Virus record (IMG/VR): IMGVR_UViG_3300025110_000066
Location: 1 to 32,476 of that record
Direction: 5' to 3' (one strand)
Length of the DNA stretch: 32,476 nucleotides
Source of the DNA: a virus
Position numbers and translations under genes: made by a program. Positions 5,697-27,595 of the stretch are shown here, in pieces (position 1 is the stretch's first letter; the number at the start of each line of letters is the position of its first letter). Under the pieces are notes generated by a model that was not told the origin of the DNA, ran no database searches, and saw only the letters and a list, made by a program, of their open reading frames with translations.

Positions 5697-5916
5697 TTTC
5701 AATTATGTTCTTTAGTCCAACGTGACTAAGATTCCTCCCTGTCTTCTCTGTAACCCAAAGACTTCCTTCCCTTAGAGACAATGATTGATTCTTTACCATT
5801 CCTGCAACAGCTTTAAGAGTTTCTAGCTGCTCTGGTATAGGGTTTAAAGTTTTATTGTCCTCGTCTAGTTCATACCCAAATGGTATTGTGCTACTAGTCC
5901 GTTGTAGTGTCTCCAT
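5653..5916 (-). CDS. Serine-recombinase 'Recombinase'-domain-like small protein, 87 aa
   Basis: The stretch IPFGYELDEDNKTLNPIPEQ, followed by LSLREGSLWVTEKTGRNLSHVGLKNII, resembles the DNA-binding 'Recombinase' domain (Pfam PF07508 as I recall it) of large serine recombinases: a PxGY-x-LDED-x-KTL-x-P start and a helix-turn-helix ending in W/G-x3-I. The catalytic resolvase domain is absent, so it cannot recombine DNA by itself. It overlaps both terminase genes (23 nt with the small subunit, 44 nt with terL from its chosen start), which points to a packaging-related DNA-binding role; that is inference. It could be a decayed recombinase, but the compact coupling argues against decay. Confidence 0.6.
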   Translation of the reverse strand: METLQRTSSTIPFGYELDEDNKTLNPIPEQLETLKAVAGMVKNQSLSLREGSLWVTEKTGRNLSHVGLKNIIENGRLETEPRELPDR

Positions 5917-6286
5917 TAATAACTATCTCTTCTTTGGCCGGAAGTATAAACAAACCTCCCTCTACCTTATGATTAACATCTAAACTATCTTTTTTGCCCA
6001 GACCTGTCCGGTCTAGAATTGTTTGTGCTGCTTGAATCCTTACACTGGCTTGCGGTATAGGCGCGTCAGAGTCCATAATGTTTACAAGCTTCATAGCAGC
6101 TTTAGGAGCAGACTGTGCTAAGATACTGGAGGCCATCTCAATGATCTCATGCTTCAATGCTTTAGCTACTTGCCAATGCCCATTCTTAGCATAACCAGAA
6201 AGCTCCGCAGCTTTCCTTAGATCACCTCCCGTAGTCATAAGATTGTCTAGAAAGTCTTGTTGTTTAACTGTCAATTCTTTTTTCAT
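5894..6286 (-). CDS. terS: Terminase small subunit
   Basis: Starts MKKELTVKQQDFLDNLMTTG, followed by DLRKAAELSGYAKNGHWQVAKAL, a helix-turn-helix typical of small terminase subunits that recognise the packaging site, then a helical oligomerisation region (AAMKLVNIMDSDAPIPQASVRIQAAQTILDRTGLG) often seen in this family. Its place directly before terL supports this. I chose ATG 6286 rather than the upstream in-frame TTG at 6322, because TTG at 6322 is the first part of a perfect -35 element. With ATG 6286 there is no Shine-Dalgarno sequence, and the predicted transcription start falls on or next to the ATG. Confidence 0.85.
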   Translation of the reverse strand: MKKELTVKQQDFLDNLMTTGGDLRKAAELSGYAKNGHWQVAKALKHEIIEMASSILAQSAPKAAMKLVNIMDSDAPIPQASVRIQAAQTILDRTGLGKKDSLDVNHKVEGGLFILPAKEEIVINGDTTTD

Positions 6287-6293
6287 TCTATCT

Positions 6294-6322
6294 ATTATAC
6301 CCCAAAATCTCAGGTTTGTCAA
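6294..6322 (-). promoter_or_regulatory. Perfect consensus sigma70 promoter for terminase operon
   Basis: On the minus strand, TTGACA (6322-6317), a 17-nt spacer, then TATAAT (6299-6294). Transcription would start at about 6287-6286, which is the A of the terS start codon or one base before it. Confidence 0.8.
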
Positions 6323-6327
6323 GTAGT

Positions 6328-6341
6328 TTTTAATTTATTTT
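6328..6341 (+). repeat. AT-rich UP-like element, copy 1
   Basis: The 14-mer TTTTAATTTATTTT occurs here and again at 6918-6931. In both places it lies 9-10 nt upstream of a TTGACA box, the position of RNA polymerase alpha-subunit UP elements. Confidence 0.5.
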
Positions 6342-6350
6342 CGAAATAAC

Positions 6351-6379
6351 TTGACAAAAGTCGAATTAGGGTGTATAAT
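6351..6379 (+). promoter_or_regulatory. Perfect consensus sigma70 promoter, rightward
   Basis: TTGACA (6351-6356), 17-nt spacer, TATAAT (6374-6379). It stands back to back with the terminase promoter (28 bp between the two -35 boxes) and reads into the repeat-rich non-coding region. The first start codon of a likely gene is 700 nt away, so the first product may be an untranslated RNA or a long leader. Confidence 0.75.
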
Positions 6380-6392
6380 ATAACTATTAAGA

Positions 6393-6424
6393 CCCCCCCG
6401 TGTACCCCTATATAACCCCTCCCC
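6393..6424 (-). other. G-quadruplex motif on minus strand
   Basis: Four C-runs of 7, 4, 4 and 4 (6393-6399, 6405-6408, 6416-6419, 6421-6424) give, on the minus strand, four G-runs separated by loops of 1, 7 and 5 nt, which satisfies the usual G-quadruplex pattern. It would be in the RNA of the leftward promoter at 6835-6862. Confidence 0.55.
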
Positions 6425-6510
6425 TAATACTATAGAGAACTCTGAAGAACTTTGGAGTTGCGCCCCTAACTGCTTAACAAACCTTTCTAGTAAAAATGTA
6501 TATGATTTAG

Positions 6511-6535
6511 TATATATATAGGGGGTGGGGGGTGG
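6511..6535 (+). other. TA tract followed by G-run cluster on plus strand
   Basis: An alternating TA tract (6511-6520) is followed by runs of 5, 6 and 2 G separated by single T residues (6521-6525, 6527-6532, 6534-6535). It could form an intermolecular or two-layer quadruplex. The strand bias is opposite to the cluster at 6393-6424. Confidence 0.4.
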
Positions 6536-6559
6536 CCTCCTGCCTACCCATGCTCTATG

Positions 6560-6780
6560 GAGTCTCTCTGTAGCTTTCCAGAGCATCCTTAGCTCAAAGC
6601 GTAGGAATTCTAAAAGTCTCCATAGCTTTCTGTAGTTTTCTCTGTAGCTTCTCTGAAACTCTCTGTAGTTTTCTAAAGTCTCTGAAGTTTTCTGTAGATT
6701 TTGAAGCATTGCCTTCTAGTTTACAGAGAATTCCAGAGACTTTTAAGTTTATATAGTAAACTTCAGAGACTTTGGAAAGC
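6560..6780. repeat. Array of short direct and inverted repeats
   Basis: At least six imperfect copies of CTCTGTAG-YTTTC occur between 6563 and 6707 (variants include TCTCTGTAGCTTTC, TCTGTAGTTTTC and TCTCTGAAGTTTTC). Inverted copies such as ACAGAGAATTCC, CCAGAGACTTTT and CTTCAGAGACTTTGG follow between 6722 and 6776. A perfect 16-nt inverted repeat, AAAGTCTCTGAAGTTT at 6675-6690 with its complement at 6758-6773, bounds a 67-nt loop. The arrangement looks like iterons or a multi-site operator. A minus-strand open frame crossing it (6335-6709) is a by-product of the repeats. Confidence 0.6.
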
Positions 6781-6834
6781 TTTATAAATCAGTCTATTCT
6801 ATAGTATTCTCCCTTCTTTATTTGATTAACTACT

Positions 6835-6862
6835 AGTATACAGGAATCTGTATGGTTGTCAA
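6835..6862 (-). promoter_or_regulatory. Leftward sigma70-like promoter
   Basis: On the minus strand, TTGACA (6862-6857), 16-nt spacer, TATACT (6840-6835). It would transcribe leftward through the repeat array and the G-run cluster toward the terminase operon, facing the rightward promoter at 6351-6379. Confidence 0.6.
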
Positions 6863-6917
6863 GTATTATCTTGTTTGATGGCCGTTTTAAATTTGCTATA
6901 AAGGAAGAAGGAATTTA

Positions 6918-6941: not shown

Positions 6942-6969
6942 TTGACATTCCTTTTTAAGTCTGTATACT
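6942..6969 (+). promoter_or_regulatory. Rightward early promoter A
   Basis: TTGACA (6942-6947), 16-nt spacer, TATACT (6964-6969), with the AT-rich 14-mer just upstream. The sequence GACACTTAAA starts 4 nt after the -10 box, as it does in promoter B. Confidence 0.65.
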
Positions 6970-10359: not shown

Positions 10360-10433
10360 GGCTGCGTGGCAGAAGGGTGATGCAGTGGATTGCAAATCCA
10401 TATATGCAGGTTCAATTCCTGCCGTAGTCTCCA
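10360..10433 (+). tRNA. tRNA-Cys (GCA), CCA encoded
   Basis: 74 nt folding as a cloverleaf: acceptor stem GGCTGCG with CGTAGTC (two G-T pairs), 3-bp D stem GCA/TGC with a GG-containing loop, anticodon stem GTGGA/TCCAT around TTGCAAA (anticodon GCA, reads UGC and UGU), 4-nt variable loop, T arm GCAGG-TTCAATT-CCTGC, discriminator T and encoded CCA. Weak points are the 3-bp D stem and the wobbles. It sits inside the early operon, transcribed with it. Confidence 0.9.
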
Positions 10434-23073: not shown

Positions 23074-23259
23074 TTAATTAAATAGTTGTTCAGCAGCGCA
23101 GTGGTCTAGACTCCTACAAGTTCTTACATTCAACATAAAAATATCTTGATCAATCCAGTTAAATTGAGGGTACTCTTGTAAGTGTAAGGACATTCCACTA
23201 GGCGCTCCGAAGTTACTACAGCCTGTCAGTAGTAAAGCCGTAAGTATTAAATATTTCAT
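23074..23259 (-). CDS. Small lipoprotein, 61 aa
   Basis: The N-terminus MKYLILTALLLTGCSNFG is a type II signal peptide with lipobox LTGC, so Cys 14 should be acylated and the mature 48 residues sit in the outer or inner membrane facing the periplasm. Two Cys residues in the mature part could form a disulfide. Overlaps the cytochrome/monooxygenase gene (ATGA). It could be an outer-membrane spanin component, a partner of the exported oxidase, or a superinfection factor; it lacks the Pro-rich region of typical Rz1 proteins and I see no inner-membrane spanin partner. Confidence 0.7.
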   Translation of the reverse strand: MKYLILTALLLTGCSNFGAPSGMSLHLQEYPQFNWIDQDIFMLNVRTCRSLDHCAAEQLFN

Positions 23260-24554
23260 TGGGCTATCAACCTCTTGTTGTTTCTTTCAGTTATAAGTTC
23301 TTGGTACTTCTCTTCATCAAGATGTGTTACTGCTATCCAAGCGTGAGTCATCTCATCGCCTGTCCTACTACCCCCTACAACCCACATATCAGGGTCAGGA
23401 TTGTTAGGGTTGTTTGCTGTGTTGTCATACCACTGTTTTAAAACTAACACCGCTCCCGTTGGTAGTAGTGGGGCATAGTCTGGGTCATACAAATGACTGT
23501 GATGCCACGTTGCACTCCAGTTAGATACCTGACTAATCTGCTCTGTTCTCCCAGTGTCAGGGTAGAATATCTCAAAGCTTGCTGCATTCATTCTTAAATG
23601 TCCGTGTGGTTGCCATGAGTCTATACGAACCGGATGATCAAAGGAGTGAAAGCCTTGTGTCATATGATAACCATTGGGTGGGATAACAATATCAGCTTGA
23701 TCACTAATCCTATATAGCTTCAGGTCTTGTTCGTAAGCAAGTTCTTGGGATTCCTCTGGAGAATACAACCACAGCCCTATCTCTACTACATTATCTTTAA
23801 TAATAGTTCCGGGGGCGATAGCTCCAAGACCTCCGGGGAACATATGAATGTCCCAAGCTATCTCTGCGTTAGCAGGTATGGTTCTACACACCCCCTCTGG
23901 TACTATTTCTCCCCACTTACCCATAGCATATTCAGTAAGCATACCGTACCTCTCGCCTTCTAAGGTAACAGTGCTGTTAGCGTGGTGAACCACACTCTTA
24001 GCCTCTCCTCTTGGCTTAACTTGGATGGCCTTAATGCACCTGTCCTCAGTTAGTCCACTGGCTACGTTGTGTTTGTGCCACAGATCGTTCCCTGTAGCCG
24101 GAATATCTATTGGAGTAGACGGTATAACCAACGTAGGTTCTCCAAAGGTTTCGTAGAAGTTCCACTGATCAGGGTCAGAGAGGCGAGGAGACTGCACTAC
24201 AACGTCAGTATCACCATACTCTGATCCCGTATTGACCCACTCTACTATCGTGTCTACATCGGCCTGAGAGAGCCTCCAATCACCATGTAATTCTTGTATG
24301 CCAATTCCCGCATCGTAAGCGTAGGGCGGCATCTCTCTGTTAGCCACTTTCATTTGAATTAATGGACTCCACGGGCGAACCTCCTCATAAGATTCAAACG
24401 TCATAGGCCCAATACCACCTTCACGATGGCACACTACACAGTTATTGTTTATAATGGCAGCTACATCATCTACATAAGTAGGCTCATTTGGATATAGTTT
24501 ACTGGCTGATACCAGTAGTGTAGTAGCTATTATTAAACCAAGTAATGTTTTCAT
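23256..24554 (-). CDS. Exported cytochrome c / PHM-like copper monooxygenase fusion, 432 aa
   Basis: A Sec signal peptide (MKTLLGLIIATTLLVSA, cleavage near 17-18) is followed by a short c-type heme domain: CVVCH at 39-43 for covalent heme and Met 75 (EMPPY) as probable axial ligand. The rest resembles ascorbate-dependent type II copper monooxygenases (peptidylglycine hydroxylase fold): VVHHAN (His 190-191) and WDIHMF (His 237) as one copper site, PHGH (His 317, 319) and TGDEM (Met 402) as the other. Similar heme-plus-monooxygenase fusions are encoded by marine bacteria. The substrate is unknown. ATGA overlaps with both neighbours place it in the late virion operon. I know of no phage example from memory. 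Confidence 0.8.
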   Translation of the reverse strand: MKTLLGLIIATTLLVSASKLYPNEPTYVDDVAAIINNNCVVCHREGGIGPMTFESYEEVRPWSPLIQMKVANREMPPYAYDAGIGIQELHGDWRLSQADVDTIVEWVNTGSEYGDTDVVVQSPRLSDPDQWNFYETFGEPTLVIPSTPIDIPATGNDLWHKHNVASGLTEDRCIKAIQVKPRGEAKSVVHHANSTVTLEGERYGMLTEYAMGKWGEIVPEGVCRTIPANAEIAWDIHMFPGGLGAIAPGTIIKDNVVEIGLWLYSPEESQELAYEQDLKLYRISDQADIVIPPNGYHMTQGFHSFDHPVRIDSWQPHGHLRMNAASFEIFYPDTGRTEQISQVSNWSATWHHSHLYDPDYAPLLPTGAVLVLKQWYDNTANNPNNPDPDMWVVGGSRTGDEMTHAWIAVTHLDEEKYQELITERNNKRLIAQ

Positions 24555-27500
24555 TTATACATACTCCTATGTAAGCTTCCTAATATTTTACCGCCTGTGT
24601 TTCTTTTAACCCTTCCAAGACTTCCTAGTACCTTGCCTCCAGTGTTGTAGGTTGTGGATACTGGAGGAAGTTTACCAACTACATCATCTCCTTTGTTAAT
24701 GTAACCAAATCCACCTTCCTTACTCGCTTTTTTAAATTCTTTAGAATTAAAAATATCTTCAGCGGCTTCTAATACACTTCCATATGTAGTTAATATATCT
24801 TTAGCTAGAACTCCATTAGGAGTCATTGCATTTTCAGCAATTACTATGTCTCCTGATTGAGCAGCTTGCCTTGCCCTAATAAGAGGAAGACCAGTTTTAG
24901 CATCCATAAACCAAGAGTGTATATCAGGATTCATTCTTACTTGTGTCCAATTAGGATATTTAAGAGGATTCTCTATTACATCTTTCATAAAAGCATATAG
25001 CTCATCATAATTTGTATTTAACCAATTACCATTTATTCTAGCTATTGTACTTTTAACCTCTACTTGCCTAGCTATTTTTTGAGCTGCTATAGGTGAAGTT
25101 ATAAACTCAACATCTTCTAGTAATCCTCCTCGTCCATATGCTATCGGACTTCCACCGCTTGTCCTACCATCATGGAGGGTTACTGCCTTCTTTCCCTTAT
25201 AATTCCATACAGGAATATCTATTCTTTGAGAAGTTCTAGTCCCATTTTGAATAAAAACATTTCTATCTAAAATACCTGTTCCTACTAACTTCCTATCATC
25301 TATTGACCTAGCTACATCAAGATCATAAATTTTTTCAGGCATAACTTTTACTGGTTTGACAGGTAATATTTCACCAGATATTTTAAATTGATCTAGTTGG
25401 CTGATTTCTCCTCTGCCCCTTTTAAAATTAACTTCCTGTAATCTTTTTCTAGTTTCTTCAGGTAATAGTTCTAATCTTCTTGGAATACCTTTACCCTTTC
25501 TTGATATTAAAAAATCTTCTAAATCTTTTGCGGCTTTATACACTGTAGAAAATTTTTCTGGAAAAAGCTTTGCTAAAGTTTCTACTTGTTGACCTTCAGC
25601 TACCTTTTCTGACTTTGGTAAAACTGGAACATCTTTAGTAAAAACACCCGGAATTTCTTTACCTGAACCAGATAAAACTTTAGTAGTAGCACCTTCCGGT
25701 ATCACAGCATCAAATGTTTGTAAGTCATCAACTGCCTGTTTAATAGGGGGTTGTTCAGCAAAGTCAGTTTTAGTGGACTGTCCAACAAGACCTTGTTTTT
25801 GTGAGTTACCAAAATAATTTATTTCTACAGGAACTTCTTTTAATCCTAAAGCTATTGCTGCGTCTATCCTGTTATTACCTTCTGAAATTTTAGGCATAGA
25901 ACCATAATCTTTTGTTATAAAAATAGGTTCTTTTATTCCATTTTCAGATATATCCTTTTTTAATTTTTCAAAGCTTTCATCACTTCTAGTAGTATGTTGA
26001 CCACGAATTTCTCCTGATACACCACTATAATCTTTTAGTTTATTAGGATCAATACTTCCTAATTCTCTTCTTGTCAAATGGTCTTTATTTCCAGTTGTAC
26101 CATCAAACTCTTTTATAAATTTACTATTAATAAAATATGGATTTTTTAATTGTTCAACAAAGTCAGTAACAAACTGATCATCTCTGAACAATATATAAGA
26201 GTTGCCTCCTGCCTTCTTCTCTGAAACCCTTGCAAGTTCTCCTAGATTCTTGTACTTAATACTGTCGAATCCCAAGTCCTCTAGCATTGTCTTGGTTAGT
26301 TGATTAATGTGGTGATCGTAAACAGAGTTCAAAAGCTTTCCTGAGTTCTTATCTTTCTTACGAAGAATAGTATTTATTTGTTTAGCAGCATCATCTACTA
26401 TCTTAGTAAACTGTGCAGGACGTAGTTTTACTTGAGCATTCAAAGCGTCCACAAAAGACTGAGCTTGTTCAGCTAGTTTAATTTTTCCTTTAGGATCAAA
26501 GCCTCCTAAAAACTTAGAAGGATTCCAGTTAATCATATCAGTATCTAAAATTAAAGGATTCTTTACGTTTATAAATCCTTTCTGCAACGAAGGCTCTACG
26601 CCTGTTGGTACTGATAAGTTTAATTCTTTAATAAGATCATCATAGATACTATCAGGAACCCCCTTTTCTAAAACGGCTACTTGTGCTGCTGCTTCTGACA
26701 TCCCCTGCCCCATGTAATACTGTGTTGCTATACGTTCTATCATATTCTCAGCAGTGGGGTGTGTTCCTCTTAGTAATATATTTTCTGCCTGTCCTTTAGT
26801 ACCAATGTGCATACCAAGTTCTCTTGGAATACGGGTAGACAAAGGATTATCATATCTAATTCCAGAAAAAAAACTACCATTAAACTGAGGACTTTTCTCT
26901 ACAGAATCTTTTAAAAATTCTTCCTTGGTTAAAGTAGATGGTTCAACAGGTTTGTCAGATACTTTAGGAATATCGTCAGTATATTTCTGAACTAAACTAA
27001 CATCATCTACAGGTATATTATTAAACTCATCTTCAACTTCTGCATTTAATTTAGTTTCTGTTTCTTGTTTAGCCTTCCAATATCTTTGATCCGGTTCTCT
27101 ATAAACTTTAATGTCCATAGCTTTATTACTAGGGTTGGCCGAATAAAATCTGTTTATAATATTATCTTGTTCTTCAATATCTGCATTTTTAAACATTCCT
27201 AAATCTAAATTTTCTTCTTCATCTAAATGTTTAAGAAATTTTCCTTCATTATCTATTTTTACTTTGCTTGTAGAATAATAAAAAGAGTTGGGGTCTATGA
27301 AAGACTGTGGTTCTTGTTCTCTAAAATTTCTAATAGTATCTTTACTTCCTTGATCTGCCTCAAATCTTGTAACAGGTCTGGTGTCTGCAACAACTTCATC
27401 TACACCCCTTGTTAGTCTCTTAATAAAAGTAACTAGTCCTGCTGCTGAAAAACCTAAACGATCTTCTTCATCTATAAAAGCTCCCCCCGCTTGCAAGTCG

Positions 27501-27595
27501 TAAGGTAGCCCTGTCATTTTGTCAATGCGCTCATCCGGTTCTTCTGGAGCCTGTGGTACTATTACTGAGCCTCCCTTTTCATAAAACTTTTTCAC
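24551..27595 (-). CDS. Large polyvalent virion protein with ART-like and ParB-like domains, 1014 aa
   Basis: Probably an internal protein ejected with DNA. Starts MKKFYEKGGSVIVPQAPEEP. About residues 260-480 resemble polyvalent ADP-ribosyltransferase domains (GMHIGTKGQAENIL, then PLILDTDMINW, LGFDSIKYKN and SYILFRDDQFV). About 520-600 form a ParB-like fold: KKDISENGIKEPIFITKDYG, then EGNNRIDAAIALGLKEVPVE. A later segment (TQVRMNPDIHSWFMDAKTG, residues near 905-925) recurs in large phage virion proteins. The C-terminus carries two NTGGK-(V/I)-LGSL units. Multi-domain 'polyvalent' proteins are thought to act on host targets after entry. Domain calls are by eye. Confidence 0.65.
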   Translation of the reverse strand: MKKFYEKGGSVIVPQAPEEPDERIDKMTGLPYDLQAGGAFIDEEDRLGFSAAGLVTFIKRLTRGVDEVVADTRPVTRFEADQGSKDTIRNFREQEPQSFIDPNSFYYSTSKVKIDNEGKFLKHLDEEENLDLGMFKNADIEEQDNIINRFYSANPSNKAMDIKVYREPDQRYWKAKQETETKLNAEVEDEFNNIPVDDVSLVQKYTDDIPKVSDKPVEPSTLTKEEFLKDSVEKSPQFNGSFFSGIRYDNPLSTRIPRELGMHIGTKGQAENILLRGTHPTAENMIERIATQYYMGQGMSEAAAQVAVLEKGVPDSIYDDLIKELNLSVPTGVEPSLQKGFINVKNPLILDTDMINWNPSKFLGGFDPKGKIKLAEQAQSFVDALNAQVKLRPAQFTKIVDDAAKQINTILRKKDKNSGKLLNSVYDHHINQLTKTMLEDLGFDSIKYKNLGELARVSEKKAGGNSYILFRDDQFVTDFVEQLKNPYFINSKFIKEFDGTTGNKDHLTRRELGSIDPNKLKDYSGVSGEIRGQHTTRSDESFEKLKKDISENGIKEPIFITKDYGSMPKISEGNNRIDAAIALGLKEVPVEINYFGNSQKQGLVGQSTKTDFAEQPPIKQAVDDLQTFDAVIPEGATTKVLSGSGKEIPGVFTKDVPVLPKSEKVAEGQQVETLAKLFPEKFSTVYKAAKDLEDFLISRKGKGIPRRLELLPEETRKRLQEVNFKRGRGEISQLDQFKISGEILPVKPVKVMPEKIYDLDVARSIDDRKLVGTGILDRNVFIQNGTRTSQRIDIPVWNYKGKKAVTLHDGRTSGGSPIAYGRGGLLEDVEFITSPIAAQKIARQVEVKSTIARINGNWLNTNYDELYAFMKDVIENPLKYPNWTQVRMNPDIHSWFMDAKTGLPLIRARQAAQSGDIVIAENAMTPNGVLAKDILTTYGSVLEAAEDIFNSKEFKKASKEGGFGYINKGDDVVGKLPPVSTTYNTGGKVLGSLGRVKRNTGGKILGSLHRSMYK

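Follow-up and report, generated by a model that had tools for sequence, protein, structure and literature searches.

The origin of the lactococcal phages c2 and bIL67 (Ceduovirus) lies in a noncoding region between divergent arms and is flanked by the first two early promoters, and a noncoding transcript from the first of these, PE1, is thought to start replication; c2 origins replicate without phage proteins (PMC7150918). By analogy of layout, this origin appears to be the closest known counterpart of a region in a 32,476-bp virus record (the window, by which the whole stretch analysed is meant). As in c2, a noncoding region lies in the window between divergently read early and late arms, two promoters of the same direction bound it (6351+ and 6942+), a noncoding transcript is predicted from the first promoter, and the sequence varies strongly between groups. 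Unlike in c2, a short core is conserved here across groups and a clade-specific leftward promoter faces inward; the host phylum and the phage lineage also differ, and the likeness is known from layout, not from sequence.

Three other systems share part of this arrangement. In the ColE1 origin a strong promoter yields the folded RNA II of about 500 nt, and RNA I comes from a facing promoter on the opposite strand. Here as well a strong promoter, predicted to yield a folded RNA of about that length, is faced by another, but the latter sits at the other (3') end of the module and is not conserved, and a fixed G-rich hybrid as in ColE1 is not expected, because the GC run consists mainly of G or mainly of C depending on the relative. 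The primary origin of T7 consists of tandem phage promoters and an AT-rich block; here too a promoter is followed by AT-rich DNA beside T7-like replication proteins, but the promoters are of host type and a phage single-subunit RNA polymerase was not found. The pac sites of headful phages such as SPP1 and P22 are conserved DNA boxes near the terminase genes of permuted genomes, to which the boxes near terS and the seemingly permuted genomes described below may be likened; the present element, in contrast, stands outside terS, several kb off in HMO-2011 and the CRP phages, and inside a predicted transcribed, hairpin-rich unit.

The window phage and its gene layout

By protein comparison, the window phage is a marine podovirus of the HTVC103P/HMO-2011 type. 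Its TerL shares 65-67% identity with those of the Pelagibacter phages HTVC103P, HTVC104P and HTVC115P, and about 45-50% with those of HMO-2011, HTVC033P and the Roseobacter CRP phages. Structural and packaging genes form the left arm, read leftward up to a terS-like gene (start 6289), and replication genes form the right arm, read rightward from about 7086. The terS-like gene, whose product had no match in Pfam or PHROG, was named for its position beside terL and its synteny with annotated HTVC103P and HTVC115P. The replication proteins are T7-like (Toprim-DnaB helicase-primase, PolA, a gp2.5-like protein and endonuclease I), but the phage is not simply T7-like: the packaging and structural genes are of HMO-2011/HTVC103P type, and a T7-type RNA polymerase was not detected with PF00940 in 22 related records, with T7 as the working positive control and full-length relatives as the basis, the window's own record being a fragment. 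Eighty relatives were gathered by a TerS search; a noncoding region of several hundred bp is present in them and was also found in cultured HTVC115P, HTVC103P, HMO-2011 and CRP-1. The features of the window are as follows.

5894-6289, minus strand: terS-like gene
6294-6322, minus strand: leftward promoter, TTGACA-17-TATAAT, 12/12, toward the terS-like gene and the left arm, kept in relatives
6351-6379, plus strand: rightward promoter, TTGACA-17-TATAAT, 12/12, reading through the module, kept in relatives
6386-6890, plus strand: predicted untranslated RNA, both ends being predictions, folding z -5.4
6461-6549, plus strand: core, with TTAACA at 6474-6479, AT block at 6493-6518, GC-rich spacer at 6519-6532 and TGGCCTCCTGCC at 6533-6544
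6564-6701, plus strand: direct-repeat array of TCTCTGTAGTTTTC-like units (repeat families D1 and D2)
6667-6781, no strand: inverted repeat with arms 6667-6696 and 6752-6781 (87%), enclosing arms 6675-6696 and 6722-6743
6716-6725, plus strand: box 2, CTAGTTTACA, 242 bp past the core box
6835-6862, minus strand: facing leftward promoter, TTGACA-16-TATACT, 11/12, clade-specific
6942-6969, plus strand: second rightward promoter, TTGACA-16-TATACT, 11/12, toward the right-arm genes

Several observations were made elsewhere in the window. Genes of the left arm have a third-position GC of 0.22-0.25 and those of the right arm 0.37, which would fit separate origins of the arms. A tRNA-Cys gene lies at 10360-10433 (plus). 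A 432-aa protein at 23256-24554 (minus), with a signal-like start, a CVVCH motif and a weak match to cytochrome c (PF13442) under the cut-off, is possibly a secreted haem or copper protein, which would be unusual in a phage, and a 1014-aa late protein at 24551-27595 (minus) has a ParB_N stretch below threshold.

Promoters, repeats and folding of the module

Four strong sigma-70-type promoters are arranged as two divergent pairs (6322-/6351+ and 6862-/6942+), so that the convergent pair of the preliminary description (6351+ and 6862-) is their inner half. Both of its members are in place, the rightward one perfect as claimed (12/12) and the facing leftward one good (11/12), but the two outer promoters had been missed. 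A scan of positions 1-32000 gave 12/12 sites only at 6322-, 6351+ and 17871+. A divergent pair of 12/12 (or 11/12) stands just upstream of terS in nearly all 80 relatives. Leftward sites of at least 11/12 within 600 nt past the rightward promoter were found in 5 of 43 non-redundant modules, the window included, with 0.5 expected by chance; they are present in the nearest relatives of the window and rare in the rest. Since the left pair is near-universal and the 6862-type promoter is confined to these few modules, the facing arrangement is regarded as a clade-specific by-product, and the leftward promoter is genuine in the window's clade but not a general feature. It may simply be an extra promoter for the left arm. 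Conservation, which had been proposed as a check, thus holds for the rightward promoter and not for the one that faces it.

The second rightward promoter reaches at least 11/12 in only 2 of the 43 modules, and in several relatives the first rightward ORF comes without a strong second promoter. In HTVC033P the far side of the module also carries a leftward gene, annotated as gp84, unlike the divergent arms of the window, yet the rightward promoter (11/12) is kept; in three further loci (L008-L010) the next ORFs past the module run leftward and the promoter is still present. Because it is maintained where the next genes face it, its RNA would not be merely a gene leader. A search of the regions from HMO-2011 and CRP-1, covering their first 130 nt, gave no promoter of at least 10/12.

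The absence of a gene between the facing promoters holds good in that no conserved gene occupies this repeat-rich stretch of about 455 bp. Where a c2-type origin should have neither an RBS nor an ORF of at least 100 bp between its promoters, the stretch between the two rightward promoters has frames of 36 aa and 28 aa on the plus strand and of 124 aa on the minus strand, with no sign of conservation; the last, which is the longest in the module (6335-6709), had no Pfam match and no counterpart in the ORF lists of relatives, and a protein-coding module was rejected on these grounds. L066, L073 and L074 have a longer module, in which an ORF of 90-99 aa, about 138-438 nt upstream of terS, separates the core from the 5' hairpin.

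Direct and inverted repeats and strong folding of both RNAs had also been proposed; the repeats are real, and the window module indeed folds better than shuffles on either strand, with z of -5.4 (plus) and -3.1 (minus). Across relatives the mean z is -5.4 (plus) and -4.3 (minus) vs -2.7 for downstream controls, some relatives having hairpins further into the right arm too. Perfect hairpins numbered 237 in the modules and 56 in shuffles, an approximately fourfold excess. The mismatches inside hairpins were five GU and five AC, so RNA is not favoured over DNA, and this comparison was set aside as uninformative on RNA-level selection, GU counts in predicted folds being confounded by composition. 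Right after the 6351-type promoter, a hairpin of -5 kcal/mol or lower is found in 26 of 33 relatives vs 9 of 33 control stretches, and its stem varies by compensated substitutions, a single position having as many as five pair types. The window itself lacks this hairpin, which most relatives carry at the predicted start of the RNA. No covariance model of Rfam 15 matched the module above its gathering score, and sub-threshold microRNA-like matches on the long hairpin were taken as chance.

The conserved core and box 2

All fully sequenced relatives contain a core of about 75 bp, composed of TTNACA, 15-19 nt, AAAATGTATATGATTTAGTATATATA, 12-14 GC-rich bases and TGGCCTCCTGCC. In 50 sequences, 15 of its columns are invariant and 17 more are at least 90% conserved, which is stricter than its surroundings. 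An exact search of IMG/VR with the AT block returned 41 contigs, each with a single copy, and in the newly fetched loci this copy stands beside terS in all but one, whose stored DNA stops before terS. The profile of the window's group matched HTVC115P (E = 3e-4) and, more weakly but at the expected spot, HMO-2011, CRP-1, CRP-2, CRP-345, HTVC103P, HTVC104P and ctYwJ313; a profile built from the core of CRP-1, CRP-345 and HMO-2011 matched ctYwJ313 (5e-8), CRP-2 (3e-7), CRP-9 (2e-4) and CRP-13 (1e-3). From the exact and profile searches together, the core is present throughout the abundant HMO-2011 phage supergroup, with one copy in each genome. It was not found in the TerL-related phages outside the supergroup (Slicky01, CHOED and part of phiM6), blastn of module or core against phages gave no meaningful match, and one-per-species bacterial and archaeal genomes contained no exact match to the core pattern. 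RNAalifold predicted no consensus RNA pairs in the core.

The GC-rich spacer keeps its length and changes rapidly in sequence even between close relatives, with G runs, C runs and GGGGTACCCC-like palindromes among its variants. Inspected by eye, the first box of the CRP and HMO-2011 phages reads as an inverted repeat (GTAAACCAC..GTGGTTAAC). In CRP-3 (L139, 6300-7260) a GC-rich noncoding gap between leftward genes holds a possible, much diverged core, GTATACGCTACCGGGTACCCCCCCGGTGGCACTCGC, which was seen by eye only and gave no match to the core profile. In 28 of 44 modules box 2 is present with no more than one mismatch, 130-310 bp downstream of the core, and it is often followed by a hairpin of varying sequence.

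Replication, packaging or regulation

The region is tentatively read as a host-RNA-polymerase-dependent replication origin of the transcription-started type. Because the replication proteins are T7-like and a T7-type RNA polymerase was found in none of the 22 records, the host RNA polymerase would have to prime, and it is this need, together with the Ceduovirus-like layout, for which an origin is preferred. Host RNA polymerase would start at the strong rightward promoter 6351 and make an untranslated RNA, perhaps of 450-500 nt, running through the core; at or past the AT block the RNA would remain hybridised or open the duplex, and its 3' end would prime the T7-like DNA polymerase and helicase-primase of the phage, while the early genes would be read from the 6942 promoter and the left arm from the one at 6322. 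The divergent pair kept in nearly all relatives, the rightward promoter kept in HTVC033P and L008-L010, the single-copy core at a constant location and the covariation in the 5'-terminal hairpin are consistent with such an origin. Against it stand the HMO-2011 and CRP-1 regions, in whose first 130 nt no promoter of at least 10/12 was seen, the absence of the hairpin from the window itself and mismatch types that do not favour RNA. DnaA boxes are not in excess (3 vs 3.4 in shuffles), and replication-type skew was not seen: total GC skew flips with coding direction and was rejected as a coding effect, and four-fold sites are near zero on both flanks of the module, so that the GC-skew check proposed for an origin was of no help. 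Of the two ideas in the preliminary description, a primer-RNA origin is the better fit to the layout, though not proven.

The distribution of the core counts against an origin and in favour of a pac site, at which core and box 2 would be bound as DNA by the small terminase and headful packaging would begin at the GC-rich spacer; a site of this kind is possible but unlikely. CRP-9 and CRP-13 have HMO-2011-type packaging and structural genes with another replication module, and HTVC103P-type phages do likewise (PMC8528129). The core, present in all of these and in HMO-2011-type phages, thus travels with packaging and structural genes although the replication modules are of at least three kinds, and an element recognised by a phage protein would therefore be tied to a packaging protein; an origin would still be compatible with a core for which host factors suffice, since c2 origins replicate without phage proteins. 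The core, for which no RNA pairs were predicted, may act as DNA, its first box appears by eye to be an inverted repeat in the CRP and HMO-2011 phages, and in the window's group the core immediately precedes the terS-like gene. In 11 contigs of 48-53 kb the core is at 0.21-0.82 of the length, and such near-full-length contigs are cut at scattered sites relative to it, as for permuted genomes; these scattered positions, and contig breaks that are not clustered at the GC spacer, make a cos site unlikely. A pac site leaves unexplained the strong promoter kept without downstream genes and the covarying hairpin, and is weakened by terS lying several kb away in HMO-2011 and the CRP phages and by the TerL-related phages in which the core was not found.

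A phage noncoding RNA from 6351 with a non-priming role, in control of translation, transcription or host RNA, is doubtful to the same degree. Its working part would be a single-stranded core, whose CCUCCU could pair with Shine-Dalgarno sequences in most relatives, but this motif is not universal (CACCTG, CTTCTG and others occur). The strong promoter, maintained without a gene behind it, the covarying 5' hairpin, the excess of perfect hairpins and the folding z argue for such an RNA; the want of an Rfam family and of a defined 3' end, and G-U mismatches no more frequent than A-C, argue against it.

An ordinary control region, in which two divergent promoter pairs serve the two arms through long hairpin-rich leaders and nothing more, is improbable. 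It would account for four promoters where the arms meet, for the hairpins deeper in the right arm of some relatives and for first rightward ORFs without a strong second promoter of their own, but it leaves unexplained a core that is more tightly conserved than the flanking sequence in 50 relatives and can still be recognised in other groups. Plasmid-style antisense control by complementary RNAs, the other idea of the preliminary description, is highly improbable, because, although both promoters score well in the window and its closest kin, the facing one is absent at that strength from most relatives, in contrast to the general occurrence of the rightward promoter, the core and box 2; L008, L009 and HTVC033P have a leftward-facing terminator at the module end instead, and the 6862 promoter, perhaps just another left-arm promoter, starts at the 3' end of its putative target, unlike RNA I. 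It is scarcely to be expected that the RNA made rightward is a conserved phage RNA for packaging, acting together with the HMO-2011-type terminase and therefore accompanying the packaging genes regardless of which replication module is present; such an RNA would be comparable to phi29 pRNA in role and not in kinship.

These gradings follow from the distribution of the core, the c2 analogy and the unlikelihood of a cos site. In conclusion, the region most resembles a transcription-started origin, with a packaging site or a regulatory RNA as the alternatives. HMO-2011-type phages are described as dominant and broadly distributed in the ocean, yet an intergenic, noncoding, promoter or origin element goes unmentioned in the text that describes them (PMC9038755). 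A conserved noncoding element that occurs once, at a constant location, offers a concrete target for how these phages begin replication or packaging. If the element is an origin for which host RNA polymerase alone suffices, this would explain how replication genes could have been exchanged between lineages while the element stayed.
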